Assembly: GCA_947652115.1 (NCBI GenBank)
Contig: OX393570.1
Span: 13,378,103-13,442,102, forward strand
DNA: 64,000 nucleotides
DNA from: Blastomussa wellsi
Lineage: Eukaryota > Cnidaria > Anthozoa > Scleractinia > Plerogyridae
Direction: 5' to 3'
The notes under the pieces were generated by a model. It was not told the DNA's origin and ran no database searches. It saw nothing but the letters and a program-made list of their open reading frames with translations. Shown piece after piece: positions 23,285 to 42,208 of the stretch. Made by a program: the position numbers and the translations under genes. Position 1 is the first letter of the stretch; the number at the start of each line of letters is the position of its first letter.

Positions 23285-23653
23285 TTTGTATAGGTTGAAT
23301 CCTGCGTGGCGGGCGCTAAATGCGAGATTTACCTGCGGGCCTGTGCGCTTTTTCACATCTTTCGTGGCCGCGCAGTCATCGAGGATTATGAGCGTGTTGG
23401 TGCCTTCCAAAAAGAAGCAAACAAGCTTCAACCAGGGTTCAACCTCATTCTGTTCGCAAATGATAACATAAAAACGCGGGTCCGCCAAAGCGAAACGATG
23501 AAAAGTCATGTTATGCGCGAATGTCGGGCAGATGAGCACGATGTAGTCGAACTTGCCGCGAAAAGGCCCGTGGAGGTGATCAACCACAAACCTTGATTTG
23601 CCTGAATTCGTCGGGCCCACGATGAAAAATCTTTTTCCATGGCTAAAGATCAA
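23285..23653 (-). pseudogene. Packaging ATPase, N-terminal fragment (element A)
   Basis: Keeps Walker A GPTNSGKS and Walker B-like LIILDDCAA followed by KDVKKRTGPQ, as in the A32/FtsK-HerA family of DNA-packaging ATPases. The C-terminal half present in the intact copy (50,014-50,628) is deleted, and the frame runs straight into the next gene (MAKQ...). The N-terminus is also altered: the first residues do not match B or C because the neighbouring deletion ends there. Confidence 0.8.
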
Positions 23654-23673
23654 GAAAAAGTTAAAAAAATGAC

Positions 23674-24456
23674 ATGGAAGAAATCAGAAACAGAATGAGA
23701 GTTATTGATGAACAGAGAGCTGCTCTTGAAGATACACATTGGCCTTTGGATGAAAAAGAAATTAAAAAACTGAAACAGGCGAAAAAAGACCTTGAAAAAG
23801 AACATCAAGATAGAAGAAAACAACTTGAACAAATCAACAAAACAGCAAAACAGGCGCCAAAATTAAAAGAAGATATACAGAAGCTCACAGAAGAAATTGC
23901 CAGGTTAGATAAAAACATAAGTGAACTTCAAGAAAAAATTGACACAGAAGCCCTCAACGGGCTAAAAGTACAAAAAGCAGAACTGGAACGCGAAAATGAA
24001 GAAGATAGGGCGATCATCAACGATGAGGACGCCTCACCCTCTGACAAAGAAGCCGCGGAAGAAAGAGTTGCGGAAAGAACCGAGGAGCTTGCGCGTCTGC
24101 AAACGCAGATTGAGGAAAGAGAAAGTGCGCTTCCACTTCGTGAGCGAGTAAAAGAGATCTTCAAAAAATACGGCGTGACCGCCACGGCTGTCCTTCTTGC
24201 TGCTGGTGTCACGATTGGTGCTGTCGTTAGCACCATCAACTCGTCGCTGAAAGCCACCGCCAAAGGGTTGGGAAATGGCTTGAAAGAGATTGGCAAAAAA
24301 CTTGCTGGAATCCTTCCCGGTTTGATTGGCTCAATTGTTTCTTTTCTTTTCAAAGCTGCTGGCCATGCAATCGGTTTTCTTGCTGAGCACACCTGGCTTC
24401 TGATTTTGGATGTGGTGGCATTTTTGGTTGAGGGCTATATCAAAAAGCGACGTTAA
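23674..24456 (+). CDS. Coiled-coil membrane protein, C-terminal part (element A)
   Basis: 260 codons, open. A long charged coiled coil (about 1-165) is followed by a conserved hydrophobic Gly-rich block (GVTATAVLLAAGVTIGAVV) and further membrane segments ending AEHTWLLILDVVAFLVEG and a basic tail. It equals the C-terminal 56% of the C-copy protein 51,949-53,337; the N-terminal acidic region is deleted. Its stop codon TAA overlaps the stop of the convergent gene within TTAA at 24,453-24,456. Confidence 0.7.
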   Translation: MEEIRNRMRVIDEQRAALEDTHWPLDEKEIKKLKQAKKDLEKEHQDRRKQLEQINKTAKQAPKLKEDIQKLTEEIARLDKNISELQEKIDTEALNGLKVQKAELERENEEDRAIINDEDASPSDKEAAEERVAERTEELARLQTQIEERESALPLRERVKEIFKKYGVTATAVLLAAGVTIGAVVSTINSSLKATAKGLGNGLKEIGKKLAGILPGLIGSIVSFLFKAAGHAIGFLAEHTWLLILDVVAFLVEGYIKKRR

Positions 24457-26133
24457 CGCAATGTCAAGAAGGCCAAACCCGCAACTGCTACCGCACCAAC
24501 CGCAACAGCTATTTTGTTTAAGTCATGAGACTCACTGCCGGAGCCAAACGTTGGCGTCGGCGCTGGTTCAGGTTCCGCTGCTGTTTGGGACACAGGCGCT
24601 GGCTCTTTTTTCACCGCTTTGTGAATTGGATTGGAAGGATGGCTGTTTGGCGGGTTAATTTTTTATTTCCCGCCAGCCATGAGCTGAAGAGCCGCCTTTT
24701 TCGTGCTTTTGTTTGCACCGTCGTTTATCCCCAGTTTCATGCCCGGTATCGCCTGTTTGAGTCGGTTGTTGTAGCCAACCGTGCTTTCTGTGTTTATTAC
24801 CATCTGTGCGGGCATCAGCCATGCACCCGGACATACAGCAAGGTTGAGCCTCACCTTTGCCTCATCCACCGCCAGCTGATAACGCTGCACGCTTTTGCCA
24901 GGTCGGGCTGCCTTATCGTATCTTCCACCAAGACGAGGAACTCGCTCTGGGCCTCCTTTGCGCGCCCCCCTTCACCCAGGATGCTGCTGTGGACGTTTAC
25001 TTGCGCGCCCAAGATGCAATACACGAACGCCTCTATCGACTGGTTTATTCGCGACAAACCCGCCTGGGTCAAACCTGCCGTGGTTTTGGGCGCGAACCAA
25101 TTGAATTGCTCTTCCGCGGCGTTGTTTCTTATGAAACAAATTGAAATTCCCCTTTCTGACGCCCTTGGGTCCTCGTCGTCGAATTTTGCTTTTGCCGATG
25201 GATAGGGCACGTCCAAAACGAAAGGGTCATGACAATAAATGTAAACGCTCCCCAGCCCGTGGTTTGCCCCGTACGTGAAGCGGAAATCAGCTGACGGGGG
25301 AACGCCGAACTCTGCGCACAATCTTTTGTAAGAAGCTTCGTCATGGTTGTTGTTGGTTTAACTGAATGTTGGGTCGCCCGGCAATGCGCTTACACTTTGG
25401 ATGCCTCCGAGCTGGAAGAGGATTAGCCGAACCGTGAAGTATACATGGAAGATGTAGAACGCCCGCACCTGCGGCGGCAGATTCAGCGTTGTGTTGTCTT
25501 TGTCAAACACTTAACGTGATATTCCGCAACCTGTCGTCGCACACCATACGGCAAAGTTCAGCTGCTGTTCCCAGAAAGATAGATCAGGCCGGGCCAACCA
25601 TTTTTTTTTTTTGCGAGCTTTGACGTTTCGAACTTCTGTTGTTCCTTTTCGAATATCTCTCTGAACTTTGTTGTAAAATACTGGTCAGGGGAGACATAAA
25701 AATCCACTGATTTGTTGAATATTTTCTTCAAACTTGGCGCCGCGTCATGAAATTCAAGTGCTGGAACCGACGGCAAACTTTTTTCTGTACTGGGCGATAA
25801 CTGACCAGGGAAGCCGCCAACGTCATCCAAACCCAGCGCGCTTTTCATGCCTGCATCCCAATATTTGCGGTCTGAACCGAAGACGCTTTGTAGACTGCCT
25901 TAACCCTCTTTCCAGAATATTTCGGCTGTTGCTGTGTGGTCCGGCGCAAAAAATGTCTGTGCTTCAAATTGGCTTTTGTCAGCCCTCGGAAACCGTGCAG
26001 AAAAAGCCGCCCATGCCTTGGCTTGTGCAAGCTTCGCATTCGCCGTGGAGATTCCGTTGGCAGCCTGCGCTCTTTTTTCAAGATAGTCAAACACAACAGA
26101 ATCTTGCTTGCGTGCGGTTTTCCAGATGTTCAT
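24453..26133 (-). pseudogene. C-terminally membrane-anchored conserved protein (element A)
   Basis: Homologue of 53,334-55,020. Start ATG complement 26,131-26,133 (MNIWKTARKQ). Recognisable blocks are FPRADKSQFEAQ, HDAAPSLKKIFN, FTTKFREIFEKE, LTQAGLSRINQSIEAFVYCI, AKEAQSEFLVLVED and VCPGAWLMPAQMVINTES, then a linker and a terminal hydrophobic segment. Interrupted by a TAA near 25,902, a frameshift near 25,600, a stop near 25,512 and another shift near 24,880. Function unknown; probably structural, because it is always beside the capsid genes. Confidence 0.75.
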
Positions 26134-26187
26134 CTTTATATATTCCCCGTAATTTTTCAATTGAAAATTTGCGCGCAACATAATAAA

Positions 26188-26752
26188 ATGGTTGTGCTTA
26201 CTATTTCTACGTCTTCTAATCCATGCACCGTCAATTTTGACAACCCGATTCCAGAGGCCTCTTTCGTAAGGCTGTTGTCTTGTTCGCTTTATAATTCGTG
26301 GCATAATTTGAAAAACGATGGGGTAATTACAATGTCTGATCCTGATGGTAAACGGGCTGTTCCCATTACATTCCTCAGAGGGCATTACACTCTTGAAAGT
26401 ATGGCTCAAAATATTGAACATGCTCTCGCTAATGATGATGTAATTTTGATGTAAAACTTCCCACTCAAATCGATACACCAGCTGGTGCAATGGTTATTAA
26501 CAACTTTGGGAATAAAAAAATAACTCTTGACGAAGACTTAGCCGATTTTCTTGGCATATCCCGCGTTTTGTTTTTCAGAACTTTCGTCAAACGGCTTCGT
26601 ACACCGAGTACTTACTTTGTCCATTGCGACTTTGTTGACCACAATCAAAATTTGGTCAATGGCAAAGCTTCAACCCTTCTTGCAAAGACAACGACGGAGA
26701 GCTTTTTGATTTTAACGATCAACCTCTTGAATTCGAATTGCAAATTATTTGA
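26188..26752 (+). pseudogene. Probable minor virion protein (element A)
   Basis: Begins MVVLTISTSSNPCTVNFDNP with the conserved RLLSCSLYNSW. A TAA at 26,452 and a frameshift break it. FVHCDFVDHNQNLVNGK is retained, but about 40 residues before the conserved C-terminal ending are deleted, and the ending itself is shifted in frame. Intact homologue: 55,063-55,731. I do not assign a fold with certainty; a penton/minor-capsid role is inferred from size and neighbours. Confidence 0.7.
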
Positions 26753-26775
26753 AAAATAAAATCTGTGTATATACC

Positions 26776-27329
26776 ATGTCTTCGTCTATTGCGTTGCCAA
26801 GTGCTCCGCCTATTTATCCAGAGCTTCCCCTGGAAAGAACCGAAAATTTCCGGCTTACTGAGATCAGTAAAATTGAAAAAGAAATTGCCGATGAGGCTGA
26901 ACACCGGAGGCTTCTATTTAAAAAATACAAGAAAACTCGCAAAGTGATTCACTATTCCGGGGTGTCTCTTGGCGTTGCAAGTGCCTTCCTGTCTTCCGGG
27001 GCCGTTGCATCTTCACTTACTGGCGTCGGAATTGTGGTCGGTGCGCCTGTTGCTGGAATTGCCGCCCTCCTTGGCTTTGCTTCCACAGGCCTGTATGCTA
27101 TTAACAAGAAGCTTGAAAGGAAAATTAAAAAGCACACGAAAATTCACGCTCTGGCCCTGGCAAAGCATGACTCGATAAAAGGCTCCGTCTCTCAAGCTCT
27201 CAATGACGATAATGTTTCCAACGCTGAATTCAAAATGATCTCTGGTGAAATGCAGAAATATCGTGAACTCAACGAGAGACTGCGGAAAAACCTCGCGAAG
27301 CCGTCCGATTCGCCGAATATTGAAACGTG
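26776..27329 (+). pseudogene. Gly/Ala-rich membrane protein, truncated tandem copy 1 (element A)
   Basis: Start ATG at 26,776 (MSSSIALPSAPPIYPELPLE). It is nearly identical to copy 2, which starts exactly 562 bp downstream. The duplication cuts off the last about 26 codons: after SPNIET the frame reads into the upstream region of copy 2. One substitution (Ile to Val) distinguishes the copies in the central region. Confidence 0.75.
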
Positions 27330-27337
27330 TATATACC

Positions 27338-27967
27338 ATGTCTTCGTCTATTGCGTTGCCAAGTGCTCCGCCTATTTATCCAGAGCTTCCCCTGGAAAGA
27401 ACCGAAAATTTCCGGCTTACTGAGATCAGTAAAATTGAAAAAGAAATTGCCGATGAGGCTGAACACCGGAGGCTTCTATTTAAAAAATACAAGAAAACTC
27501 GCAAAGTGATTCACTATTCCGGGGTGTCTCTTGGCGTTGCAAGTGCCTTCCTGTCTTCCGGGGCCGTTGCATCTTCACTTACTGGCGTCGGAATTGTGGT
27601 CGGTGCGCCTGTTGCTGGAATTGCCGCCCTCCTTGGCTTTGCTTCCACAGGCCTGTATGCTGTTAACAAGAAGCTTGAAAGGAAAATTAAAAAGCACACG
27701 AAAATTCACGCTCTGGCCCTGGCAAAGCATGACTCGATAAAAGGCTCCGTCTCTCAAGCTCTCAATGACGATAATGTTTCCAACGCTGAATTCAAAATGA
27801 TCTCTGGTGAAATGCAGAAATATCGTGAACTCAACGAGAGACTGCGGAAAAACCTCGCGAAGCCGTCCGATTCGCCGAATATTGAAACGTTAAAAAAACA
27901 GATTCGCCAAGAGCTTCGTCAAGAACTTCGAAAAAAACTGACGGCGTCCAGCACAAATTTGAAGTAA
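27338..27967 (+). CDS. Gly/Ala-rich membrane protein, copy 2 (element A)
   Basis: 209 codons from ATG 27,338, uninterrupted. It has a Pro-rich N-terminus, a charged helix with the motif RTENFRLTEISKIEKEIADE, then a long Gly/Ala/Val hydrophobic hairpin (about residues 60-110). Charged helices follow, ending in a basic QELRQELRKKL repeat. The architecture suggests insertion into or bending of a membrane. Homologue at 30,581-31,160. It is the only complete copy of this gene in the window. No functional assignment. Confidence 0.75.
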   Translation: MSSSIALPSAPPIYPELPLERTENFRLTEISKIEKEIADEAEHRRLLFKKYKKTRKVIHYSGVSLGVASAFLSSGAVASSLTGVGIVVGAPVAGIAALLGFASTGLYAVNKKLERKIKKHTKIHALALAKHDSIKGSVSQALNDDNVSNAEFKMISGEMQKYRELNERLRKNLAKPSDSPNIETLKKQIRQELRQELRKKLTASSTNLK

Positions 27968-27976
27968 ACTTTGAGT

Positions 27977-28240
27977 CTAAAAAAAGAAAAATCTCCCTCT
28001 CTGTTTTAAAAAAGTAGACCAGGCCTCTTGCGAAAAAATAAAAGTTCCCAACGTGACTAAAATTGGAGATTGGCAGAACTTTGTGAAATGCTTCTGCTTT
28101 TCCACACGCTTTTCTGTATTTACAAGGAACTTCCAACACCCGTTTGGCAGAGCGAGGTCAGACGGATAACACAGCAAGTTGTTGAGGCAATGTCCGAGGT
28201 GGGCTCTGATCGACGGTTCGATCGTGCGCTTTGAACACAT
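27977..28240 (-). CDS. Conserved short ORF of unknown reality (element A)
   Basis: A frame containing HCLNNLLCYPSDLALPNG and KRVEKQKHFTKFCQSP is recognisable also in element B's displaced end (about 31,250-31,430, minus strand), where it is broken. It may be the distal part of the zinc-ribbon transcription unit or an untranslated conserved region. Weak evidence. Confidence 0.3.
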   Translation of the reverse strand: MCSKRTIEPSIRAHLGHCLNNLLCYPSDLALPNGCWKFLVNTEKRVEKQKHFTKFCQSPILVTLGTFIFSQEAWSTFLKQRGRFFFF

Positions 28241-28247
28241 CTTGGGT

Positions 28248-28790
28248 TCACACCCTTTTTATAAATATTTCACTGTCGATTTCATCAAAAGTTGGGTCGC
28301 CGAGGAAGTGTTTGGCTCCATTTTTCCAGCACGAGAAGCACATTCCGTTCACAGACGCTGCATTTTCTACAAACCGTTGCCTTGACAATTTGTTCACCCT
28401 GCTACAAAAATGGGCGGCTTGCAGTTCCTCGTGAATTGCCTCCCAGCCAAGGGATAACTTTTGCTTAATTTTTTCCCTCAACTCTGGCGTTTGAAATTTC
28501 TCCATCGGCAAGAACGCTTGCTCTTTTTGCTTCAGCTCGTGCAAAAGATGGGCATAATTTTTCTTTGCTTTTTTCTCTATGCGTGTTGGCCGCTGTTGTA
28601 GCGTGTGCCCTCCGCAATGCCCGCATAGTCGGTGGTCGGTCAAAATCCCGATTCCACAGCTGCGGCATGGCGCCGGCTTTTGCCTTCCTTTTTGATTTGC
28701 CAGTTGTGCTGCACGCAATATTTTCCGTCGCACTTTTTACCGCAGTTCTTTTTCCGATTTCGCAGCAACCACTTTCACTTGGGCGAAGTA
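28248..28790 (-). pseudogene. Zinc-ribbon-like protein (element A)
   Basis: Cys-rich core PCRSCGIGILTDHRLCGHCGG followed by a helix QQRPTRIEKKAKKNYAHLL, then a further Cys-containing tail (CFSCWKNGAKHFLG). The N-terminal Cys/His part lies in a different frame upstream of about 28,680, so the gene is frameshifted. It lies at the element end, as in the terminal repeats of element B. Likely nucleic-acid binding by fold; role unknown. Confidence 0.65.
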
Positions 28791-28845
28791 ATATCACAAC
28801 GGTTGAGCGACGAGGTGGTATTTGTTTTCCTCATGTTCTACTACT

Positions 28846-29848
28846 GCGCGAGGAAAAGGAAATTACAGATCTGCTAGATGACGAACAAAATTGTCTAAGT
28901 TATAATGCCTTTATAAATAAATTCAGAATTAAAACCAATTATCTCGAATATTATAATTATAAGAAAATTATAAGAAAATGCACTTTAAAGTCAATCATAA
29001 CCTACCACCAAATAATCCAGTTGACAACTTCTTTTTCTCATGCCAAGGTTTCAAAAAAGGTTTATGAATATTTGATAAACAAAAAATCTTCTATACCATT
29101 AAGAAGTAAGGGAAGTGGTTGGAAGAGATTAGGGACATAGCTAGTAACCCTGACATAACAGTAAACTGGAAAAATACGTACTGCCTGTCATCTCTGTGTA
29201 CAAAAGAGTCAAAACTTAGAGCCTCCCAATTTAAACTCCTTTATAGAAGAATCGCCACAAATGACTTTCTGCACAAGATAGGTATTAAACAAACGGATTC
29301 CTGCCCCTTTTGTGAGGTACAAAAAAAAACTTTCGTTCATTTATTTTGGACCGGCAAAAATACACAGAAATTTTGGAAGAGCACCTTTGACTGGATTTCT
29401 CAAAACCCCTAAACCTTCTTTGACTCTATGTTTTGGTCTCATTGATAATGTAAAAGATGTTCTCTTTCATCAGCTACTCATTCTAGCCAGATATTACATA
29501 TATAACTGTCGGCTTCGGAACAAGCTTGCTAACCTACAGGTCTATATACAACTACTTATAAATTCAATGGAAATTGAAAAACAAACTGCATTCTACAGCA
29601 ACGACCCAAACCTCTTTGTGAAGAAGTGGTCTCGTTTGCAAAACAACCTCTAACAAAGTGTACTACATTACCAATATAAAGATGAAAGCAGCGTAAAGCG
29701 TAGAACCGTTTAATTGTTAACTAAATATACTTCAAGTGATTTTTTAGTTTGTATTCCACAGTACCGTAAGCGTTGCTAGTAGTCGTACGCATCATTAGCA
29801 TTTGTAAGCATTGTTAGCATTGCGAGTAAAATTTGTATTAGTTTTGTA
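28846..29848 (+). repeat. Composite array unit U3 fragment (LINE plus tail)
   Basis: Begins near gatctgctagatgacgaaca and ends gtattagttttgtaa at 29,848, where displaced piece 1 of element B starts. It corresponds to about 59,780-60,800 of the best unit. The missing continuation of this tail is found inverted at 35,873 going leftwards. Confidence 0.75.
28860..29690 (+). pseudogene. LINE C-terminal fragment (zf-RVT), copy 3
   Basis: Frames 29,119-29,412 and 29,312-29,653 carry CPFCEVQKKTFVHLFWTG in place of the usual final Cys, preceded by LYRRIATNDFLHKIGIKQTD. Multiple frame breaks. Same family and position in the unit as the other copies. Confidence 0.7.
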
Positions 29849-29899
29849 AAATCATTCCCTTTTATTTTTCAATTGAAAATTTGCTCGGAACAAAATAAA

Positions 29900-30568
29900 A
29901 TGGTTGTGCTTACTATTGTTACAACAGAAAACGATCACACTGTTTACTTTGACAATCCAATTCAGAACCCGAGATTTATCAGACTGTTGGGTTGTTCACT
30001 TTACAACTCGTGGCACAACTTAAAAGAAACGGGGAAAGTGTTAGTATAGTTTGGGCAGTCTAGAAAAGAAGAAACTCTTTTGCTTCCTGGCAACTATTCT
30101 TTCGAAAATATCCAAGACTTTTTCAACGAAGGTTTCAAAGACAAAATATTTTCTGCAAAGATGGACCCATTCGGTAGAACACTTATCATAACCCCAAAGA
30201 AAGAAAAAAATGTCACAGATTTTGATATAAGCGACAAAATGAAAAAACTTTTTGATATTGTCGCCAAAAATGACACGCAAATAACCACCTATGGTTTAAA
30301 AACTGAGAAGTTTTATTTTATCCACTGCGATTTAGTGGACAGTGAGCAGAACCTTTTCAACGGAAAGCGTTCGAGTGTTCTTGCGAGTTTTGACATAAAA
30401 GGCAAACCTTATGAAAAAGTTACATATCATAGCGGTGAACAACATGTTTTGAGAGACACAAATAAAACCAGAGAAGTTCATAGTTTAAACATCTCTGTCA
30501 AAAATGAAAATGGCAAACTGTTGGACTTTCATGGGTTCCCAATTTTTTTCCTTTTAGAAATAAATTGA
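29900..30568 (+). pseudogene. Probable minor virion protein (element B)
   Basis: 222 codons from ATG 29,900, interrupted only by one in-frame TAG at 30,047-30,049. Conserved blocks are IRLLGCSLYNSWHNL, FYFIHCDLVDSEQNLFNGK, FDIKGKPYEKVTY and VHSLNISVKNENGKLLDF. The length and every block match the intact C-copy 55,063-55,731. Conserved short beta-strand-like segments fit a single jelly-roll minor capsid/penton protein, but this is inference. Confidence 0.75.
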
Positions 30569-30580
30569 AATTATTATACC

Positions 30581-31160
30581 ATGTCTTCGTCAAATGTGTT
30601 GCCGAGTGCACCTGACCTTCCCCCGCTTGAAAGAACCGAAAATTTCCGACTAACTGAAATCAGCAAAATTGAAAAAGAAATAGCCGATGAAGTCGAGCAT
30701 CGTAGGCTTGTATTGAAAAAATACACGAAAGCCCGGAAAATTATCCACTATTCCTCGGTTTCTCTCGGCGTTGGAAGTGCATTCCTTTCTTCTGGTGCCG
30801 TCGCAAGTTCTTTAACGGGCGTTGGAATTGTTGTCGGTGCGCCTGTCGCCGGAATTGCCGTCCTCCTTGGGTTTGCTTTGACAGGCCTTGCTGCTGTTAA
30901 CAGGAAGCTTGAGAGGAAAATCAAAAAAGCAAAACACGACTCTATCAAAAGTTCCGTTTCCCAAGCTCTGGATGACGGCAATGTTTCTGACGCTGAATTT
31001 AAAATGATCTCTCGTGAAATGGAAAAATATCGTGAATTAAAAGAGAGACTTCGGGAAAACTTCGCGGAAAACCGAATATTGAAACGATAAAAAAATAGGT
31101 TCGCCTCGAACTTCGGAAAGAGTTTCTGAAAAAAATGTCGGCGTCCAACGCGAATTTGAA
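30581..31160 (+). pseudogene. Gly/Ala-rich membrane protein (element B)
   Basis: ATG at 30,581 (MSSSNVLPSAPDLPPLERTE), 12 bp after the upstream stop. Same charged helix plus Gly/Ala/Val hydrophobic hairpin as 27,338-27,967. A frameshift near 31,070 ends the frame early (stop at 31,088-31,090), leaving the conserved basic C-terminus in another frame to about 31,160, with one further stop in it. Function unknown. Confidence 0.7.
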
Positions 31161-31458
31161 CTAAACTTTGAATCGAAAAAAAGAAAAATATATCTCTCTG
31201 TTAAGACCTTTGGTTGATCCACGAAGGAAAAAAAGTTTCCAACGTTTTGGAAATTGAAGATTGACAGAACTTTGAAAAATGCTTCTGCTTTTCCACACGC
31301 TTTTTTGTATTCACCAGGAACTTTCAACGCCCGTTTGGCAGAGCGAGGTCAGACGGATAACACAACAAGTTGTTGAGGCAATGTCCGAGGTGGGTTCTGA
31401 TGGAGTTTGCGTGGTAGGTCACCGCTCTTAAAGAAAATGTTCTCCTGTCACACGTATT

Positions 31459-31854
31459 TTACAAAGGTTTCGCAGTCATCTTCAGGCACGTGGAAGGATT
31501 CAAGGTAGTGTTTTTTTTTTCATTTTCAAAACATGCGGCAAATAAACCAGTTTTTCCGCAAACGTTACATTTGCGGCAATAGATTGATTTTGTAATTCGC
31601 CCAAGTTTTTCACAAAAAGGGGCCTGTTCATCACGCACCTCATCCGGCCGCTTTTGCAACGTGGCCCATCCGCAATACACGCATAGCCGGTGGTCGGTCA
31701 AAACACCGATTCCGCAGCTGCGGCATGGCGACGGCTGTTGCATTCCTTTCTTCTCTTGCAATTTGTGCTGATAACAATATTGCCCGCTGCACTTTTTGCC
31801 GCAGTTCTTGGGCCGGTTTTCTCCGTGTTTTTGTGCCAATTTTGTCTCCGCCAC
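31459..31854 (-). CDS. Zinc-ribbon-like protein in the terminal repeat (element B, displaced end)
   Basis: Open frame of 131 codons. Cys/His-rich: NCGKKCSGQYCYQHKLQE, then PCRSCGIGVLTDHRLCVYCG, then a third module CRKCNVCGKTGLFAACFEN. The putative start codon is GTG in a context (agtggcgga) identical to the copy at 48,720, so initiation is doubtful or the start is further in. The N-terminal half is inside the terminal inverted repeat. Likely a nucleic-acid-binding zinc protein; role unknown. Confidence 0.6.
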   Translation of the reverse strand: MAETKLAQKHGENRPKNCGKKCSGQYCYQHKLQEKKGMQQPSPCRSCGIGVLTDHRLCVYCGWATLQKRPDEVRDEQAPFCEKLGRITKSIYCRKCNVCGKTGLFAACFENEKKNTTLNPSTCLKMTAKPL

Positions 31855-32135
31855 TTCTCTCTAATTGGTTGAAAGTGAAAGGGGGTGTTCTTCTGCCAAG
31901 TAGTAGACGCGGCCGGAAACAAATACAAACGAGGAGTACACCGTTGTCACATCTTCGCCCAAGTTGAAGAAGCGAGCCAAAAGCCAGCTTGTTTCACTTG
32001 GGCGAGGATGTGACAAACGGTTTCACCACCCCCTGCCACCCCACCACCACCCCCAACCACCCCCGCAACACCCTGCCACCCCCCACCACCCCTGCCACCC
32101 CCTGGTGGTGTTCATTTTCCACCGCGGCTACTACT
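31650..32135 (-). repeat. Terminal inverted repeat of element B, displaced copy
   Basis: About 0.5 kb, closely similar to 48,491-49,004 from cgcttttgcaacgtg to the terminal ctactact. It includes part of the zinc-ribbon gene, a subterminal hairpin and a CCACC-rich tract (32,025-32,105). The terminus reads AG...CT as in Polintons. Next to it, caacgacattctacc is the array unit sequence in inverted orientation. Confidence 0.85.
31943..32018. repeat. Subterminal hairpin in the terminal repeat
   Basis: Arms tgtcacatcttcgcccaagt and acttgggcgaggatgtgaca enclose about 30 bp. Also present at 48,803-48,878 with compensating and single changes. Could be a replication or packaging signal (inference). 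Confidence 0.7.
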
Positions 32136-32639
32136 CAACGACATTCTACCGCTAAAGGGGGTCTGGCACTAACCCTCTTTAACCCAAACTTGGGCATCTG
32201 AAACCCTTTTTTTCATGGATTCCCCCAAATTGTCGAGTCCCCTCCCATTTTTCGTCTTGAAATTAGCCTAAAATGCTTGTTTCTTTATCGATCTAGCTGA
32301 TATTTTGCAAAACGCATTTTTTTGTATTGTTATTATTGCTTACAAAGCAGACAAGTTTACAATACTAGCATTACGTAAAACACTAATGTTACGCGAACAA
32401 TACTACATTACTTACAATAGTTACATATAACTTACAATACAAATTTTACTCGCAAAGTTAACAATGCTTACAAAACTAATACAAATTTTACTCGCAATGC
32501 TAACAATGCTTACAAATGCTAATGATGCGTACGACTACTAGCAATGCTTACGGTACTGTGGAATACAAACTAAAAAATCATTTGAAGTATATTTAGTTAA
32601 CAATTAAACGGTTCTACGCTTTAACCTGCTTTCATCTTT

Positions 32640-33545
32640 ATATTGCTAATGTAGTACACTTTGTGAGAGGTTGTTTTGCAAACGAGACCACTTCTTCACA
32701 AAGAGGTTTGGGTCTTTGCTGTAGAATGCAGTTTCCTTTTCAATTTCCATTGAATTTATAAGTAGTTGTATATAGACCTGTAGGTTGGTAAGCTTGTTCC
32801 CAAGCCGACAGTTATATATGTAATATCTGGCTAGAAGGAGTAGCTGATGAAAGAGAACATCTTTTACATTATCAATGAGACCAAAATATAGAGTCAAAGA
32901 AGGAGAAACATTTTCTAAATCATCGAGGTTTTGAGAAATTCAGTCAAAGGTGCTCTTCCAAAATTTCTGTGTATTTTTGCCGGTCCAAAATAAATGAACG
33001 AAAGTTTTTTTTTGTACCTCACAAAAGGGGCAGGAATCCGTTTGTTTAATACCTATCTTGTGCAGAAAGTCATTTGTGGCGATTCTTCTATAAAGGAGTT
33101 TAAATTGGAAGGCTCTAAGTTTTGACTCTTTTGTACACAAAGATGACAGGCAGTACGTATTTATCCAGTTTACTGTTATGTCAGGGTTACTAGCTATGTC
33201 CCTAATCTCTTCCAACCACTTCCCCTGATTTCTTAATGGTATATAAGATTTTTTGTTTATTAAATATTCATAAACCTTTTTTGAAACCTTGGCATGAGAA
33301 AAAAAAACTTGTCAACTGGATTATTTGGTGGTAGGTTATGATTGTGCATTTTCTTATAATGCGCTACAGCAGATATTACTTTGTAATATTCGAGATAATT
33401 GGTTTTAATTCTGTATTTATCTATAAAGGCATTATAACTTAGAAAATTTTGTTCGTCATCTAGCAGATCTCTAATCTCCTTTATCCCCGCGCTTAGCAAA
33501 GATCTATAGAAGAATGGGCGATTTCCTATTCTTATGTGAGAATTG
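32640..33545 (-). pseudogene. LINE C-terminal fragment (zf-RVT), copy 4
   Basis: Three frames (33,260-33,499, 32,940-33,215, 32,646-32,897) together cover the same C-terminal region as the other copies, including CPFCEVQKKTFVHLFWTG. The frame is broken near 33,230 and 32,930. Confidence 0.7.
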
Positions 33546-33559
33546 TGCCATATATATGC

Positions 33560-33695
33560 ATACTGTATTCAGAAGACCGAAAAGTGATTTTTTGGAAGAT
33601 TGACCGGATCGGCTGAAATTAAAGCGCTAATGTCCGCGCAGTGCCGTTATAACGAGAACATCAATATTTCAACGTTTGATGGCAAGCGCAATTCC
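33560..33695 (-). repeat. 149-bp satellite, about one unit
   Basis: One unit with gtgccgttataacgagaaca and cagccgattcgg-type motifs, inverted, at the same junction with the recombinase fragment as in the other units. Confidence 0.75.
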
Positions 33696-34110
33696 CCCAT
33701 TGGAATTGGGGCAGGACCAACCTCTTCGCGTTTGTGCGATGACACAAGCATAACCAACTTCCTTTTCTTCTCGTCCCAATGTACTTTCGCCAACATTTGT
33801 ATTGTTGCATTTTCCAATGGGCCCAGTCGGGTTCCTACAGCTCTGGTTATTGATAACAGGAGGAGATCTCTGACGGCACAGAACTACTTCAGAGTCAAAT
33901 CTTCTGTTGTTTCTGCTGCATCAGCTGCAATTATAGCTTGTCTTCCCTCAACTGCCGGCTGGGAATTCATAATCATGTCCACCTCCTTGTTCGTAAGCAG
34001 GGTCTCACACTCATCAAGGTATTTTTCCCACTTGCCGGAAGAGGTCTCTTTTGTAATGCAGCGCCTCCACCCTTTCAGATTTACTGCGAGGTCGAAGAGG
34101 ATTTTTAGGG
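33696..34110 (-). pseudogene. Tyrosine-recombinase-like fragment (inverted unit)
   Basis: Minus-strand frame equivalent to about 58,718-59,140. It contains the same in-frame TAG after gactctgaag and the same fusion to the satellite. It extends slightly further 5' than the copy at 15,464, then changes to unit-linker sequence near 34,110. Confidence 0.55.
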
Positions 34111-34194
34111 TGAGTATTCACGTTTTGAAGTCTTTCGAGGAAAGGGGACTTAATATGTGTTCACTCAAATATACCGCAATAAGGGTCTTTACTT

Positions 34195-34814
34195 AAAAAA
34201 TCGTAAAAAATTCAGGTTTTAATCTAAGATTTGTAAATTTGCACAGGTAGTATAGGAATAACTGCTGTGAAGTTCCAATAGCATGGCAACTCCTTGCATT
34301 GTCAATCATACTATCAAGTGTGATTTACAGGTGTCAAAGCGTGTCATAATTTTTCACTCATTTTAAAAAAATCATAACTAATTTGCATTTTATTTTGATT
34401 ACACGAAACTTAGCAGTTTTACAGAATTTGACAAAATCTATCGAAATAAATTCTGAAATTAAAAAACCTTTTGAACCAAATCACTTCATATTTCACACTA
34501 GGAATAAACAACATCATGCGAACAATTGTGCATAATTTTGGCTCTTAACCCTTAAGGAATCTGTATTTTTTTCATATTCGTCAAATTTTCAGTCAAGGAA
34601 AAAGTCCGATGTAAGACAAGTATAGAGTGTCAAGTGTATACCTTTGCTACATTTTTTTGTTTTGAAAATTTTGACTTCCGTAATTTGCAGGTCATCTCAA
34701 CGGCATTCTACCACTAAAGGGGGTCTGGCACTAACCCTCTTTAACCCAAACTTGGGCATCTGAAACCCTTTTTTTCATGGATTCTCCCAAATTGTCGAGT
34801 CCCCTCCCATTTTT
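34195..34814 (-). other. 3' module of the preceding array unit (inverted), internally deleted
   Basis: Shows tagcatggcaactccttgca and ggtcatctcaacggcattct landmarks in inverted order. The part between about 34,470 and 34,490 skips roughly 0.5 kb present in other units. No gene. Confidence 0.6.
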
Positions 34815-35651
34815 ACTCGTGAATGGAATGAAACGAGTATAGTGGTTCCAAATATGCTAATTTCACTCGCTCACTCATTTCCCGTAAACTTTTTTTTTAA
34901 TGCCGCTGACTAGTGCACAATTTGTATCGTTCAAGTACTATCGCCATGTATCGCGGGCTCTAATTCCAAGGGAGAGACCCTGGGAACGAGGTTGTGTTTT
35001 GAACTCGGCTGGCTATTTGGACGATCTACGGTGACTTTTTAAATTTTGAGCTTACTCTATTCCTTTAGCGAATCGTTCTGCAAATTTACTCGTGAACTTG
35101 CATATGCTTTGAGGCCGTGGAAAGTCTTCATGGTTCTTGCTTCGCAATCTACATAACATCGTTTGTTTTGCGGCCGGAGAAGTCTTCATGGTTCTTGTTT
35201 ACTTCAGCGAATCGTTCTGCGAATTTAACTGTCGACTTCAGCTAGCATCATACGTTTTGAGGCCGTGCTTTGAGGCCGTGGAAAGTCTTCATGGTTCTTG
35301 CTTCGCAATCTACATAACATCGTTTGTTTTGCGGCCGGAGAAGTCTTCATGGTTCTTGTTTACTTCAGCGAATCGTTCTGCAAATTTAATTGTCGACTTC
35401 AGCTAGCATCATACGTTTTGAGGCCGTGGAAAGTCTTCATGGTTCTTGCTTCCCAACCTACATAACATCGTTTGTTTTGCGGCCACCAAGACAAAAAAAG
35501 GTATCTTTTCTTGACTATGAATCCAGCCATTTATTTAAGCAACTATAAAAATTGCATCGGTAACATTGCACGGTTTTCAGGTAGACCCCACTTGTAAATC
35601 AACTTTTCAACGTCCTTGGTCCTCACCATTTACACTCTTTCATTCACGAGT
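34815..35651. mobile_element. About 0.84-kb insertion with short terminal inverted repeats
   Basis: Bounded by actcgtgaatggaa (34,815-34,828) and the inverted tttcattcacgagt (35,638-35,651), 13 of 14 matching. It interrupts the array module between cccattttt and cttgaaatt. No transposase; probably non-autonomous. The 21 bp from 35,652 to 35,672 are not explained. Confidence 0.55.
35093..35490. repeat. Tandem repeat inside the 0.84-kb insertion
   Basis: About 2.5 units of 150-160 bp, each with gaggccgtggaaagtcttca and atcgtttgttttgcggcc. Units start near 35,111, 35,271 and 35,420. Confidence 0.75.
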
Positions 35652-35890
35652 TGGCTCACAGCCACTTTGATTCGACTTGAAATTAGTCTAAAATGCTTGT
35701 ATCTGTATCGATCTAGCTGATATTTGGCAAAACGCCTTTTTATTGTTATTATTGCTTACAAAGCAGACAAGTTTACAATACTAGCATTACGTAAAACACT
35801 AATGTTACGCTAACAATACTACATTACTTCCAATAGTTGCATATAACTTACAATACAAATTTTACTCGCAAAGTTAATGAATAAACCGCA

Positions 35891-37521
35891 ATGTTTGGAT
35901 ATCTCGGAAAAATAGCGCAGGCCGCCAATGCGAAGATGGCACAAGCCAAGGCGTGGGCAGATTTTTCTGCACGGTTTCCAAGGGCAGACAAAAGTAAATT
36001 TAAAGCCCAGGTATTTTTTGAACTGGACCATGCAACAACCGAAATATTTTTCGAAGAGGGCCCCGACAGTTTGGAAAGCGTATTCGGTTCAGATTCAAAA
36101 TATTGGAGCGCAGAAATGAAAAGAGCGCTGGGTTTGGTTGAAGTTGACGTTGGCGGCTTCCCTTTCCAACTGTCGCCCCGCACAGAAAAAAGTTCACAGG
36201 CGGTTCCAGCAGTTCCATTTCATGACGCGGCGCCGAGTTTGAAGAAAATATTTAACAAACATACCACAATTTATGTAACCCCTGACAAGTATTTTTCAAC
36301 AAAGTTCAGAGATGTTTTCCAAAAAGAACAGCTGAAATTCGAAACATCAAAGCCCGCAAAAAAATGGTTAAGGGGGCCAAATCTGTCTTTCTGGGACCAG
36401 CAGCTGAATTTCGCAGTGTGGTGTGCGACGACAGGCTGAGGAATCTCAAGAGAAGTATTTGACGAATAAAACACAACGTTGAAACTGCCATCGCAGGTAC
36501 GGGCGTTTTATATCTTCCACGTTTACTTCACGGTTCGACGCATCCTATTTCAGCTCGGAGGAATCCAAAGCTTTAGCGCGCTTCCTGGCGACCAAACATG
36601 GAGTCAGTTTAACAATCGTTACGACGAAGCTTCTTACAAAAGATTATTTGCAGAGTTCGGTATTGACCCGTCAACTGATTTCCGGTTTAAGAACGGGGCG
36701 AACCAGGGGTTGGGGAGCGTTTACGTTTATTGCCGCGACCCTTTCATCCGGAACTTGTCCTATCCATCAACAAAAGCAAAATTTGATGATGAAGATCCGA
36801 GAGCGTCAGAAAAGGGAATTTCAATTTGTTTCATAAGAAATGACGCTGCTGAAGAGAAATTCAATTGGTTCGCACCAAAATCCTCGGCAGGTTTGACCAA
36901 GGCGGGGCTTTCACGTATCAATCAGTCAATTGAAGACTTTGTGTACAGCATTTTGGGCGCGCAAGTAAACGTCCGCAGCAGCATCCAAGGAGAAGGGGGG
37001 CGCGCAAATGAGGCGCAGAGCGAGTTCCTTGTCTTAGTGGAAGATGCAGTGAGGCAGCCCGACCTGCGAAAAGCGTGCAGCGTTATCAGCTGGCGGTCCT
37101 TGAGGCCAAGGTACGGTTGAACCTTGTTGTTTGTCCGGGGGCTTGGCTGATGCCGGGGGATATGATAATAAACACAGAAAGTACGGTCGGTTACAACAAC
37201 CGATTGAAACAGGCGATACCGGGTATGAAACTGGGGATAAACGAAGAGGCAAACAAGGAAACAAAAAAGGCAGGGCTAAGGTATATGGATGGCGGGAGAT
37301 CAAAAATAAACCCGCCAAACAGCCATCCTTCGAATCCTGTTCACAAGGCAGCCACAGCTGAAAGCAAAAAGGATCCAAAGCCTGCAAGTCCAGCAACAGA
37401 AGAAGTGCAAACAGAAGAACCAACAACCGCGGCTGGCTCAGACAGCAATCTCAACAACAAAATTGCTGTCTTTGTTGGCGCGGTTGCAGTTGCGGGGTTG
37501 GCTTTCTTTGCATTGCGTTAA
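35891..37521 (+). pseudogene. C-terminally membrane-anchored conserved protein (element B)
   Basis: Begins at ATG 35,891 (MFGYLGKIAQ). Blocks shared with copies A and C: FPRADKSKFKAQ, HDAAPSLKKIFN, FSTKFRDVFQKEQ, FHVYFTVRRILFQLGGIQS, LTKAGLSRINQSIEDFVYSI and VCPGAWLMPGDMIINTES. A hydrophobic C-terminus KIAVFVGAVAVAGLAFFAL makes a tail anchor. Broken by TGA at 36,437-36,439, TAA near 36,467 and a frameshift at about 37,075. Its stop shares TTAA (37,518-37,521) with the convergent coiled-coil gene. Function unknown; likely a virion component. Confidence 0.8.
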
Positions 37522-38857
37522 CGCCGGCTCTCAATCAAAAATGCCACCACACCCAAAATCAGAAGCCATGTGTGCTCTGCCAGAAAACCAATTGCCTGGC
37601 CAGCAGCTTTGAAGAGGAAACTAACAATCGAGCCAATTAACCCGGGAAGGATTCCAGCAAGTTTTTTGCCAATCTTTTTCAAACCATTTCCTAGCCCTTT
37701 TGCGGTCGCTTTCAGCGAATTGTTTATGACGCCGACGACGGCGCCGATCGTGACTCCAGCAGCAAGAAGGATTGAACCGACTGTCACGCCGTATTTCTTG
37801 AAGATCTCTTTGACCTTTTCACGAAGCGGCATAACACTTTCTCTTTCCTCAATCTGCGTTTGCATTCGCGCAAGCTCCTCTTGTCTTTCCGCAACTCTTG
37901 CTTCCGCGGCTTCTTTGTCAGAAGGCGAAGTGTTCTCATCATCGATTATTTTCTGATCTTCTTCATTTTGGCGTTCCAGTTCTGTTTTTTTGAACTTTCA
38001 GCTCGTTGAGGGCTTCTGTGTTAATTTTCTCTTGAACTTCACTGAGCCTGGCATTTTCTTCTCTGAGCTTCTGAATATCTTCTTCTAATTTTGACTCCTG
38101 TTTTGCTGCTTTGTTGATTTTTTCAAAGTGCTTTCTTTTTTCTTGAAGTTCTTTTTCAAGGGCTTTTTTCTCCTGTTTCACTTTCTGAATTTCTTTTTCA
38201 TCCAAAGGGCCACGTGTATCTTCAAGAGCAGCTCTTTATTCATCCATTATTCTAATTCTGTTTCTGATTTCTCCCATGTCATTTTTAACTTTTTCTTGTT
38301 CTTCTGCCAAAGATTTAGAAATTTCCAGTTCTTTTTCTTTTTCAACCATTTCTTGCTGAACGGCTTCCTTTAATTTAAAAATGGACATTCCGAGTGCAGT
38401 TTTTATTTCTTTGGTAAGGTTTGGATTAAGATGCCATTGTTTTGAACCACTTTTTGTGGTAAACAGGTCATATGCTTTTTTTACAGCGCCAAACATTTTA
38501 ACTTGAAGCCTTCCTTTTGGGCTGTAAAATACGTCAAGCTCGCTTGCGCTCATGTTCGGAAATGTCTCTTTTGCCACAATCCAAGCTCGTTCACTGCTGA
38601 GTTCACCGCTGCCTATCAATGGAGTTTCCTCGGTGTAAGAAGGTTCAGGCAGACCGCTCTGTTCGTGTAGCCTTGTTTCCATTTGAATTTCATCACCGCC
38701 ATGATAGGGTGTCGATGCGGTGCCCGGCACAAAAGGACCGGTTGTGTTTTGGCGCTTTTCCTCTTGTTCATCGTCATCGCCATCGTTGCCAATAGCATCG
38801 TCAAGGTCAGGGATGTGGATCATAACCAGGATTATCAAAACCGCCACCTTCCGCCAT
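37518..38857 (-). pseudogene. Coiled-coil membrane protein (element B)
   Basis: Start ATG complement 38,855-38,857. An acidic Asp/Glu-rich N-terminus and ASTPYHGGDE motif are followed by a domain with FYSPKGRLQVKMFGAVKKAY, a long coiled coil (about 38,380-37,870) and the conserved hydrophobic Gly-rich C-terminus ending LAEHTWLLILGVVAFL. Broken by a frameshift near 38,810, an in-frame stop at 38,236 and a shift near 37,980-37,990. Divergent from the capsid gene with about 40 bp between starts. Function unknown. Confidence 0.75.
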
Positions 38858-38886
38858 TGTCTATTGAATAAAAAAAATTTCTGTTT

Positions 38887-38892
38887 AATATA
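38887..38892 (+). promoter_or_regulatory. TATA-like motif before the major capsid candidate
   Basis: aatata, then gaaaATG. First of a series of such motifs directly upstream of element genes. Confidence 0.45.
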
Positions 38893-38896
38893 GAAA

Positions 38897-40139
38897 ATGG
38901 CGGTGCAAGCAAACCTTCGTCCAACACACACTGAAAAAAATCCAACGCGATGAAAGCCGAGCGCACGGTCAATCGCATCACCTTTGATCGTAGCGAAGCC
39001 AACCCCACCGAGACCCTTTTTGTTCACGTATCCAAGCTGAATGAGCACGAGGTCCTTGTGCCAGGCTCTCTCGGACTGCTTTTCAACATCGACCTGTCTG
39101 GAGGGGACCCCAACAACTTCCTCGTTCAAAACGTCACACGGGCTCTTGTTGACAAGATGGTTGTGAAGTACGCTGGAAACACAGTGCAGGACACGGTGGG
39201 GTACGACATCTACAAGATCTGGGAGGACCTTTTCCTCTCGCAGGAGGAGCGTGACGACATGCCGCTCGATGGAATTCAAAGCGAAGATCTCTGCAAGATC
39301 CGCTCAAATACTGAGGATAAGAAAACCTCGGGTGTGGACGCGGAAAACGAGCTCTCCAAAGTTTTCAGAATGAAATACCGGATCCGGCTGGACCACCCGA
39401 TTCTGAAAAACCACGGAGTCTTTTATCCCCAAGCGCTCTATCACAACCTCGTTTTTGAGTTGAAACTTGCACCGGCCTCGCAGGTTGTAAAAGGCCCTGA
39501 TCCGGAAAAACTGCAATACAAGCTGAAAAACATCCAGCTCGAGTACGAAATGATTAGAAGCAAGACCTTGGCGGAAGAGGCAATCGATGTGTACAACGTG
39601 GGAAAGGAGTTCTTATACGACCGCGTGATTCGGGATCAAGTGATCACCTTTTCAAAAAGCGGCGACTCAAGGATTAACCTCAGAGTAAACCCTCAGAGAA
39701 GATCCATGAAAGGCATGCTTCTTCTTTTCATTGAGCCATACACAGCCGGTACCAGGGATTCAGAAAAGTATATCAACCCAGACCTGACGAAAGTGAGTGT
39801 TACGGTGAACGGCACGCCAAACATGCTCTTCAACAACGGCCTCGAAGGAAAAGATTTTTGGAGCGAAAATGACCGCTTCTTTGGCAAGGCAAAAAGCAAG
39901 CACATGAATCTGAAAAAGTGCTGGAGCGAAGACAAGTTCGGGCTTCTGATCGATTTGCGCTCCATGAAAGATCAGACGCTGCACGGCAGCGGCACACGGC
40001 TTGTGAAACAAAAGACGGGGTTCAGCTCGAGATCGAGCGAAAGCTCAGCGGCTCAGGCAAGGTTAACTGCCACGTTTTCGAGATCGGCGACTCGCAAATG
40101 AATATTTTGGGAAATCAATTTGAATCTGTGCAATTCTAA
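38897..40139 (+). pseudogene. Major capsid protein candidate (element B)
   Basis: About 410 codons. The first ATG (38,897) is separated from the main frame (MKAERTVNRITFD at 38,950) by a 1-nt shift, and another shift near 40,010 alters the last about 40 residues (true stop 40,137-40,139). Strongly conserved with C: NFLVQNVTRALVDKMVVKYA, KIWEDLFLSQEERD, YRIRLDHPILKNHGVFYP, RRSMKGMLLLFIEPY and VTVNGTPNMLFNNG. Beta-rich, of a size suiting a double jelly-roll capsid protein, next to the packaging ATPase. The capsid assignment is inference from synteny and conservation, not from a fold search. Confidence 0.65.
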
Positions 40140-40143
40140 TATA
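40140..40143 (+). promoter_or_regulatory. TATA motif directly before the ATPase start
   Basis: The tata abuts the ATG at 40,144, just after the capsid stop. Confidence 0.4.
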
Positions 40144-40748
40144 ATGGATCCAAACAACATTCCGTTCAACGCTCTAATCGTTGGCCCGACAAATTCAGGG
40201 AAATCGCAGTTTGTGATTGATCAGCTCTGCGGGCCTTTTCACGGCAAGTTCGACTACATCGTGCTAATCTGCCCAACATTACTGCATAACAAGACTTATC
40301 AAGACCTCGCTTTGGAGGACCCGCGTTTTTATTTTATCGTTTGCGCACAGCATGAGGTGGAACGCTGGTTGAATATTGTAAGCTTTTTTTGGATGAAACC
40401 AACACATTCATAATCCTCGATGACTGCGCTGCCTCAAAAGATGTGAAAAAGCGCTCAGGTCCGCTGGTCCAGCTCGGATACAGCGGCCGCCACTCAGGAC
40501 TCAGCCTATGGGTGCTAACTCAAAATTTGACCAGCATCACATCTTCTTACCGCGGAAACGTATTTGCGATTGTGCTTTTCTATACGCCCTCACTGAAGTC
40601 TTTGAAATATTTTTATGATGAATTCGCCGGCAGCATCCTTACTAAAAAGGAGTTCGAAGAATACATTTTTAAGTTGGGGAAAAATAAGTTTTCCTACCTT
40701 GAGTGCGCAATTCGGTGCCCAACGGAAATAAAATTTGTTCGCAATTAA
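40144..40748 (+). pseudogene. Packaging ATPase (element B)
   Basis: ATG 40,144. Walker A GPTNSGKS (codons from 40,183), Walker B-like IILDDCAASKDVKKR, then the sensor-like VLTQNLTSITSSYRGN region. This is the pattern of A32-type FtsK/HerA superfamily ATPases that package viral DNA. One frameshift at about 40,390, in a T run, splits it into two overlapping frames (stop of the first at 40,413); otherwise all blocks are present. Intact counterpart at 50,014-50,628. Confidence 0.85.
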
Positions 40749-40760
40749 AAAAAGAAAACT

Positions 40761-40767
40761 TATATAA
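40761..40767 (+). promoter_or_regulatory. TATA-like motif before the 40,771 gene
   Basis: tatataaa four to ten bases upstream of the ATG; the best consensus of the series. Confidence 0.5.
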
Positions 40768-40770
40768 AAA

Positions 40771-41649
40771 ATGGCGACAAAATCAACGATTGCATTCGAT
40801 GACCAAGTGATGACCGATGTTTTGAGCTTGCTTGAAGCTGAACCAACCAGCGCGCCCGACGACAATGTCTCATTGCAGTCTGATATTCCCGCTCTTCGCG
40901 AGCAGTTGGCTGTGCTGGTTTCAAGAGGAAAATCCAAAGAAACCCTCGGTGTGCATCTGTCGCACGATCAGGTGAAGCGCCTCTCAGACAAAGATGTTGA
41001 GAAATATATCAAACGTTTGGAGGCCTATGTGAGCACAAAGATAACTGACAGCTTGCTCGACAGCTTCATTTTCCTTGTGACCAAAGCGGTTGGCTTGGTC
41101 GTCGAAATCAAAGACATCGACGCTTATCAAAAAGATATCACAAACGACTATTTAATCAACGAACGGCTCTCCAACCTGGCCGGCGCCACTGCACTCAAGT
41201 GCGGAAGTTTTCTCGCTGTGGCCGACGCGGCGATGATCAAAGCGGTTGGCTTGGTCGTCGAAATCAAAGACATCGACGCTTATCAAAAAGATATCACAAA
41301 CGACTATTTAATCAACGAACGGCTCTCCAACCTGGCCGGCGCCACTGCACTTAAGTGCGGAAGTTTTCTCGCTGTGGCCGACGCGGCGATGATCAAAGCG
41401 GTTGGCTTGGTCGTCGAAATCAAAGACATCGACGCTTATCAAAAAGATATCAGAAACGACTATTTAATCAACGAACGGCTCTCCAACCTGGCCGGCGCCA
41501 CTGCACTCAAGTGCGGAAGTTTTCTCGCTGTGGCCGACGCGGCGATGATCACAATAAAACACATTGTTTGGAAAAGCAAAGCAAAATCGGAAGAAACTAT
41601 TGAGCATTCCTCACCAACTGTTGAGCTTTCCTCACCAACCGCTGAATAA
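40771..41649 (+). CDS. Conserved helical protein with triplicated 52-residue module (element B)
   Basis: 292 codons, open. N-terminal EAEPTSAP, LSHDQVKRLSDKDVEKYIKR and SLLDSFIFLVTKA match the 183-codon C copy (49,455-50,006). Then a 156-bp segment containing KDIDAYQKDITNDYLINERL and KCGSFLAVADAAMI is repeated three times in frame (41,085-41,552), so the protein is longer than its homologues by two modules. The C-terminus has short SSPTVE/SSPTAE repeats. Helical, possibly with weak membrane segments; function unknown. Confidence 0.75.
   Translation: MATKSTIAFDDQVMTDVLSLLEAEPTSAPDDNVSLQSDIPALREQLAVLVSRGKSKETLGVHLSHDQVKRLSDKDVEKYIKRLEAYVSTKITDSLLDSFIFLVTKAVGLVVEIKDIDAYQKDITNDYLINERLSNLAGATALKCGSFLAVADAAMIKAVGLVVEIKDIDAYQKDITNDYLINERLSNLAGATALKCGSFLAVADAAMIKAVGLVVEIKDIDAYQKDIRNDYLINERLSNLAGATALKCGSFLAVADAAMITIKHIVWKSKAKSEETIEHSSPTVELSSPTAE
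41085..41552 (+). repeat. In-frame 3 x 156-bp tandem repeat
   Basis: agcggttggcttggtcgtcg recurs at 41,085, 41,241 and 41,397. The units differ by only a few bases, for example ctcaag/cttaag and atcacaaac/atcagaaac. Confidence 0.95.
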
Positions 41650-41683
41650 TTCCTCAGCAATTCCTCAAAATTTTTTTTATTGA

Positions 41684-41693
41684 ATATATATAT
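41684..41693 (+). promoter_or_regulatory. TATA-rich motif before the 41,706 gene
   Basis: aatatatatat followed by ttgtttccaaaa and the ATG. The same arrangement precedes the homologues at 22,473, 22,665 and 49,387. Confidence 0.45.
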
Positions 41694-41705
41694 TTGTTTC
41701 CAAAA

Positions 41706-42176
41706 ATGGATGAAGAAAAGAAGCAACCGACCGCGCAAGATAGCACTGAAGCACTGAAAAGCCATCCAACTTCACAAACTCCAGCCACAAAGCCCTCCAA
41801 AAATCCCAAACGAGTGGCTGCCGGTAAACTGGTTGCTGAAAGAAATAGGGTGCTCCGCGAAGCACGCAAAAAAGCTTATCTCGAGAAAATCGCAAACGAG
41901 AATGAAAGAAAATCTGCACCTGATCCTCCGGCGCCTGCGCCTGCGCCATCAGAGCCCGCTGCAGATGATTCCAAAGGCAGAAATTGGCTCAGCACAACCC
42001 AATGGATCTCTGTCATTGCAATTGGCACAACGCTTGTAACGACTTATGTCAAGCGTGAAGACATCAAAGCCTTTTTTCGGCCAACTGCGCTGGCACCTCC
42101 GTCAGCGCCAGCACCTGCGCCACAATCTCCGCAGCCATCACCGCAACCCAAAAAAGGCCTTCGCTACATGGACTAA
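41706..42176 (+). CDS. Basic/Pro-rich single-TM protein (element B)
   Basis: 156 codons from ATG 41,706, intact. A Gln/Thr-rich N-terminus leads to a conserved basic helix NPKRVAAGKLVAERNRVLRE and a Pro/Ala linker. One TM segment LSTTQWISVIAIGTTLVTTY is followed at once by VKREDIKAFF and a Pro/Ala-rich tail ending KKGLRYMD. Homologues: 21,999-22,473, a truncated duplicate at 22,498-22,665, and 49,165-49,387 (truncated). Probably an element-encoded membrane protein; a virion role is plausible from synteny but unproven. Confidence 0.75.
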   Translation: MDEEKKQPTAQDSTEALKSHPTSQTPATKPSKNPKRVAAGKLVAERNRVLREARKKAYLEKIANENERKSAPDPPAPAPAPSEPAADDSKGRNWLSTTQWISVIAIGTTLVTTYVKREDIKAFFRPTALAPPSAPAPAPQSPQPSPQPKKGLRYMD

Positions 42177-42207: not shown

Positions 42208-42208
42208 A

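Follow-up and report, generated by a model that had tools for sequence, protein, structure and literature searches.

The window analysed here is a 64,000-nucleotide stretch of contig OX393570.1 of Blastomussa wellsi. It contains a tandemly repeated unit of ~5.64 kb, for which U5 serves as the reference copy (further unit DNA lies at 11412-18938, 28846-29849 and up to 64000), together with three incomplete or damaged Polintons, designated A, B and C (Table 1). Polinton B, the subject of this report, has a total length of ~15.4 kb and lies in two pieces, a 2,287 bp fragment (29,849-32,135) and a main part of 13,131 bp, with reversed array-unit DNA (U4) between them. We conclude, at a probability of about 0.97, that the sequence as given holds one Polinton which was once continuous and has been divided by an inversion.

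Table 1. Coordinates of Polinton B, its breakpoints and the elements used for comparison (positions are those of the window)
Feature	Position	Strand	Remarks
Inverted segment	29849..35873		2.3 kb of distal Polinton B and 3.7 kb of array-unit DNA; flanks match relatives reciprocally
Left breakpoint	29848..29849		array unit (U5-equivalent 60,798) joined to B interior; 1 nt ambiguous
Right breakpoint	35873..35877		reversed array unit (U5-equivalent 60,810) joined to B interior; up to 4 nt (TTAA) ambiguous
Array-unit DNA U4	32136..35873	-	only minus-strand unit DNA found; holds left flank of B insertion site
Secondary insert in inverted array unit	34824..35670		U5-equivalent ~61,005-61,015
Right flank of B insertion site, array-unit DNA	49005..49166	+	U5-equivalent 61,117-61,280
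Array unit U5, reference	56616..62258	+	period ~5.64 kb; next copy from 62,259 at 97%
B terminal repeat, one end	31648..32135	+	ends in CTACTACT at 32,128-32,135
B terminal repeat, other end	48490..49004	+	ends in CTACTACT at 48,997-49,004
Main part of Polinton B	35874..49004		
Minor capsid (penton-like) gene of B	29900..30568	+	in-frame stop after 49 codons; 42.8% identical to C protein (55,063-55,728)
Gly/Ala-rich protein, probably membrane	30581..31090	+	77.7% and 78.3% identical to A tandem pair (26,776-27,300; 27,338-27,862)
Zinc-ribbon-like reading frame overlapping B terminal repeat	31459..31860	-	C-x2-C pairs by eye
Gene divergent to minor capsid gene in A and C	35891..37275	+	479 amino acids in C; in B split from minor capsid gene, frame broken
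Major capsid protein gene of B	38935..40101	+	frame shifted near C-terminus
Packaging ATPase of B	40102..40748	+	weak Pox_A32 match; two frames
rve-type integrase of B	43108..43848	+	PF00665, E 4.7e-6
Family B DNA polymerase of B	44527..47036	-	two overlapping frames; PF03175 match on second frame only
Polinton A, incomplete	18938..28845		start approximate; right end CTACTACT at 28,838-28,845
Polinton C, fragment	49209..55728		divergent gene pair open (ATGs 55,020 and 55,063)

The fragment carries the minor capsid, Gly/Ala-rich and zinc-ribbon-like genes of B. The first-pass annotation of this DNA had stated that exactly these three are absent from the main part; their presence in the fragment is borne out, but the main part has one zinc-ribbon-like open reading frame (ORF) of its own (48,412-48,726, within the other terminal repeat) and is short only of a second. 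In A the relatives of the three genes occur in the same order and adjoin the 35,891-type gene, and in the database protein P0161 minor capsid sequence is followed by a part that by eye resembles the Gly/Ala protein, the order seen in the displaced fragment. The 35,891-type and minor capsid genes of C are both open (479 and 222 amino acids) and stand back to back, as does the pair in A, where both genes are broken. The ATG-to-ATG distance of this divergent pair is 54 nt in A and 42 nt in C; the two halves in B contribute 17 + 51 nt, in agreement with the proposal that the intergenic region cut at 29,849 is completed by that beginning at 35,874. Element A is continuous across the point at which B is broken: 29,854-29,917 matches A 26,142-26,205 (90.6%), while B 35,927-36,163, when reversed, matches A 25,807-26,040 (79.2%).

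The breakpoints are reciprocal in the host as well as in the element. Immediately left of 29,849, 300 bp match U5 60,499-60,798 (96.0% over 300 columns); of the 200 bp that precede 35,874, 198 match U5 60,810-61,010 (94.0% over 201 columns) when reversed. With one side reversed, the unit therefore takes up again at 60,810 after stopping at 60,798, in line with the earlier claim that one cut end of U4 fits 29,848, and the unit adjacency across the breakpoint is the same in U5, in U1 and in the minus-strand unit itself. A BLAST census against U5 returned 31 rows, of which seven were minus, and these seven all fell within 32,134-35,880; U4 is, as previously noted, the only array unit in this orientation. 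The breakpoint positions first proposed hold, and can be refined to an uncertainty of 1 nt at 29,848/29,849 and of up to 4 nt (TTAA) at 35,873/35,874. Eleven unit bases separate the two breakpoint flanks; since 1 and up to 4 of these may survive in the junctions, 6-11 nt would have been lost.

The terminal repeats of B are direct in the window, as had been reported, and this arrangement is not produced by Polinton insertion alone. Their core is identical at 342 of 368 positions (30 gap columns) and their outermost 36 bp at 35 of 36. Within one alignment the B repeats were 84.1% identical to each other (470/559), and 70.7% (203/287) and 75.9% (236/311) identical to the A repeat. The plus strand of the 64 kb contains CTACTACT three times, where about one occurrence is expected by chance, and all three are Polinton ends: 28,838 (the right end of A) and 32,128 and 48,997 (B). 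The host DNA outside 32,135, read in reverse, ends in ...GTCGTTG, and that outside 49,004 continues with CGTAGAGATGAC...; the same site is uninterrupted in U5 and U2, where it reads CCGTTGAGATGACC. Because the flanks of B meet at this site, the DNA beside 32,135 and that beside 49,004 are the left and right sides of a single insertion site.

The discontinuity of the unit, the direct repeats, the oppositely oriented flanks of the insertion site and the split gene pair are explained together by one inversion, so that the single-inversion reading of the first-pass annotation is supported. The course of events would have been as follows. The Polinton would have inserted once in an array unit, at the U5-equivalent of ~61,117-61,123, with a short duplication of the target. 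Two double-strand breaks may have followed later, one ~320 bp beyond the element, in array-unit DNA, and the other in the intergenic region of the divergent 35,891-type/minor capsid pair, and the middle piece of ~6 kb would have been rejoined turned round, by end joining without homology (6-11 nt of the unit lost, 0-4 nt of microhomology). This flip would have parted one terminus, with the minor capsid and Gly/Ala genes, from the rest of the element, and the terminal repeats would have become direct as a result.

Two-break inversions sealed by end joining or microhomology are characterized by non-homologous breakpoints and small losses. The inversion in B is like them in both respects and in its 0-4 nt of shared bases, and differs only in that one of the breaks fell inside a provirus. 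A comparison using exact words of 10-16 bp revealed no inverted match of at least 10 bp between the outer, nor between the inner, 1-kb breakpoint arms, and for this reason a two-break inversion by end joining is the best reading of the junctions, and a likely one. The non-homologous junctions also favour biology over assembly error. We infer that the inversion arose in the organism, and through end joining; its biological origin we consider probable.

Several points weigh against this account. A 20-bp identical inverted match links 29,820-29,839 with 35,852-35,871, and one of ~1 kb at 93% links 28,846-29,849 with 33,492-32,468; both are due to the repeated unit, and neither extends across the two breakpoints. 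The inversion is read from a single assembled sequence. The reverse complement of CTACTACT is found at 31,899 and 48,765, inside the B repeats, and the motif is thus not limited to termini. The target duplication is of 5-6 bp, (T)CGTTG/(T)CGTAG, with one mismatch, and the T in the right-hand copy could be part of the element. At the B insertion site U1 shows a gap of 21 nt, so that it does not provide a clean empty site and only U5 and U2 serve. Lastly, the minor capsid genes of A and B agree at only 324 of 602 aligned bases (144 gap columns), with their neighbours far closer, and taken by itself this might suggest a different origin for the fragment. The minor capsid protein of C is, however, also distant from both, with 40-56% identity to the three pieces of that of A and the value in Table 1 for that of B; the gene therefore appears to be divergent across all three elements, and its divergence is no sign of a foreign fragment.

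Of the alternatives, the one which survives best, though we regard it as unlikely, is an assembly artefact in which a short contig of ~6 kb was incorporated the wrong way round, its joins being closed without Ns. The region is repeat-rich, and the ~1-kb inverted matches and the dependence on assembled sequence mentioned above would suit such an error, but there are no Ns in the window and a repeat-driven misjoin is expected to switch within the inverted matches. Since the corresponding 1-kb arms have no inverted match of at least 10 bp in common, the error would have had to stop at two points without shared repeats. Furthermore, the unit flanks neither abut nor overlap, the 11 nt between them being missing from the unit with 6-11 nt dropped altogether.

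It is very improbable that the two pieces of B represent independent Polinton insertions or fragments which are complementary in appearance only. Three Polintons do lie close together, and the minor capsid genes of A and B differ strongly, but the host DNA outside the two pieces comes from the left and right of a single unit site, unit and element alike match up across the breakpoint flanks, and in one alignment the B repeats are closer to each other than to those of A. The B blocks 35,924-38,303 (1926/2358; 81.7%) and 30,622-31,401 (641/779; 82.3%), one from each piece and placed to either side of the minor capsid gene when the element is read in its original order, are equally distant from A; two further blocks of the main part are 84.1% and 87.9% identical to A.

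We ascribe no function to the inversion, and the notion that the flip is a recurrent or programmed switch, parting the capsid-vertex gene from a shared divergent promoter and thereby silencing Polinton particle assembly, strikes us as far-fetched. Recombination between inverted repeats, or abnormal transposition or autointegration by the integrase of the element, can practically be dismissed: A and B are oppositely oriented and ~77-83% identical in pieces, and the 20-bp inverted match lies close to the breakpoints, but no exact words of 10-16 bp link the corresponding 1-kb arms, an exchange between A and B would place the breakpoints inside both elements, which is not observed, and with neither breakpoint at an element terminus there is no support for integrase action.

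The assignment of B to the Polinton/Maverick group was based upon its proteins and its ends. The rve integrase was accepted at 27.2 bits, a score below the curated cut-off of 32.6 for PF00665. The family B polymerase, putatively of the protein-primed type, reaches 27.0 bits (PF03175; cut-off 25.8) in one of its two frames, and the packaging ATPase 16.6 bits (PF04665), below the cut-off of 22.8, on one of two broken frames. The major capsid protein had no match in Pfam, PHROGs or PDB sequences, despite 1895 relatives at E ≤ 0.001; its structure model was unusable (mean predicted local distance difference test score, pLDDT, 47.1), and a double jelly-roll fold is assumed from the family context. 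The model of a minor capsid relative, P0132 (mean pLDDT 60.9), found as its best PDB match the mavirus penton 6g41 (E 2.4e-5, template modelling (TM) score 0.34). Its viral matches at E ≤ 0.001 numbered 26, several of which carry the name minor capsid or penton; the TM-scores are low, and on this model B would possess a penton (minor capsid) protein.

The terminal repeats of ~0.5 kb, direct as given, become inverted once the 6-kb inversion is undone. CTACTACT at 32,128 and 48,997 agrees with (AGT)2//(ACT)2, the end motif of Mavericks according to passages of PMC8097293, and the target duplication, set against the 6-bp Maverick type, is TCGTTG/TCGTAG with one mismatch and an ambiguous T. The same passages give a size of 12.7-24.6 kb for intact vertebrate Mavericks and describe 96% of vertebrate Maverick loci as degraded. 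As far as these passages go, B is like the vertebrate elements in its rve integrase, family B polymerase, weak match to an A32-like ATPase and penton-like minor capsid protein, in its ~0.5-kb terminal repeats, (AGT)2//(ACT)2 ends and size of ~15.4 kb, and in its degraded state; it is unlike them in gene order, in repeats made direct through inversion and in its imperfect target duplication.

The capsid, ATPase, polymerase and 35,891 genes of B each fall into two or more reading frames, the minor capsid gene has its in-frame stop, and because several of its genes are broken B is a decayed, inert provirus fossil. The 35,891 gene shows stretches of 60.6% and 80% identity to C in different frames. 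The major capsid protein is 74% identical to that of C over 330 amino acids, with the next match in another frame; among 120 listed of its 1895 relatives the coral Oculina patagonica is the sole organism named (5/120). A search of viral contigs with this protein and with its alignment A1 gave no relatives. The second part of the minor capsid gene has 52 database relatives, and the zinc-ribbon-like ORF at 31,459-31,860 had no match in Pfam. Polinton A shows no match of at least 200 bp to the 45,527-48,400 end of B.

The end motif, the target site and the phase of the host repeat make it possible to identify an inversion-split provirus as a single insertion, and surveys requiring inverted terminal repeats would misread such loci. 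Otherwise this is an ordinary fossil rearrangement, well supported and of an ordinary kind. An inversion-split Polinton of this type was not described in the literature titles and abstract openings found, from which we make no claim of its absence from print.

A number of other features of the elements were observed. In each B repeat (31899-32135; 48765-49004) the terminal motif recurs in inverted form (AGTAGTAGACGCGG) ~235 bp inward, such that the outermost part of the repeat looks like a small inverted-repeat unit. One gene of B (41078-41551) contains three nearly identical 156-bp in-frame tandem repeats (98-99%). In A the Gly/Ala gene is duplicated in tandem at 26765-27890 (564 bp, 99.8% identical). 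The penton-like genes (26188-26756, 29900-30568, 55063-55728) show ~40-56% protein identity between C and either A or B, their neighbouring genes being more alike; fast evolution or module exchange may be offered as readings of this divergence of the vertex protein. The secondary insert in U4 (34824-35670) is 847 bp long and has an internal tandem duplication; the BLAST matches flanking it overlap by 11 unit positions, but its edge letters share few bases and the overlap does not establish a target duplication.

The array unit carries two ORFs, at 57,021-57,914 and 58,099-58,941, the second with 7 database relatives. Further along is a zf-RVT stretch of the kind found at the ends of long interspersed nuclear element (LINE) proteins (Pfam matches in two unit copies); a reverse transcriptase domain was not found in the five array-unit ORFs tested. 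The joint between units at 62,238-62,269 is marked by a 9-bp CTACCTGTG run. An array-unit insert at 17122-18287 has a poly-A run and is flanked by an 8-bp duplication, TTGTATTA, and by eye its ORF resembles a LINE zf-RVT end. It lies at U5-equivalent 60,779-60,790, ~8-19 bp from the unit-side inversion breakpoint; a breakage hotspot was considered, and two events are too few to claim one. Scans of the window gave no Rfam matches at gathering scores and, using ARAGORN, no tRNA genes. Outside the array, 4112-8026 is occupied by a long open retrotransposon polyprotein of 1304 amino acids with aspartic protease, reverse transcriptase, RNase H and integrase domains, which we take from the domain order to be Gypsy-like.

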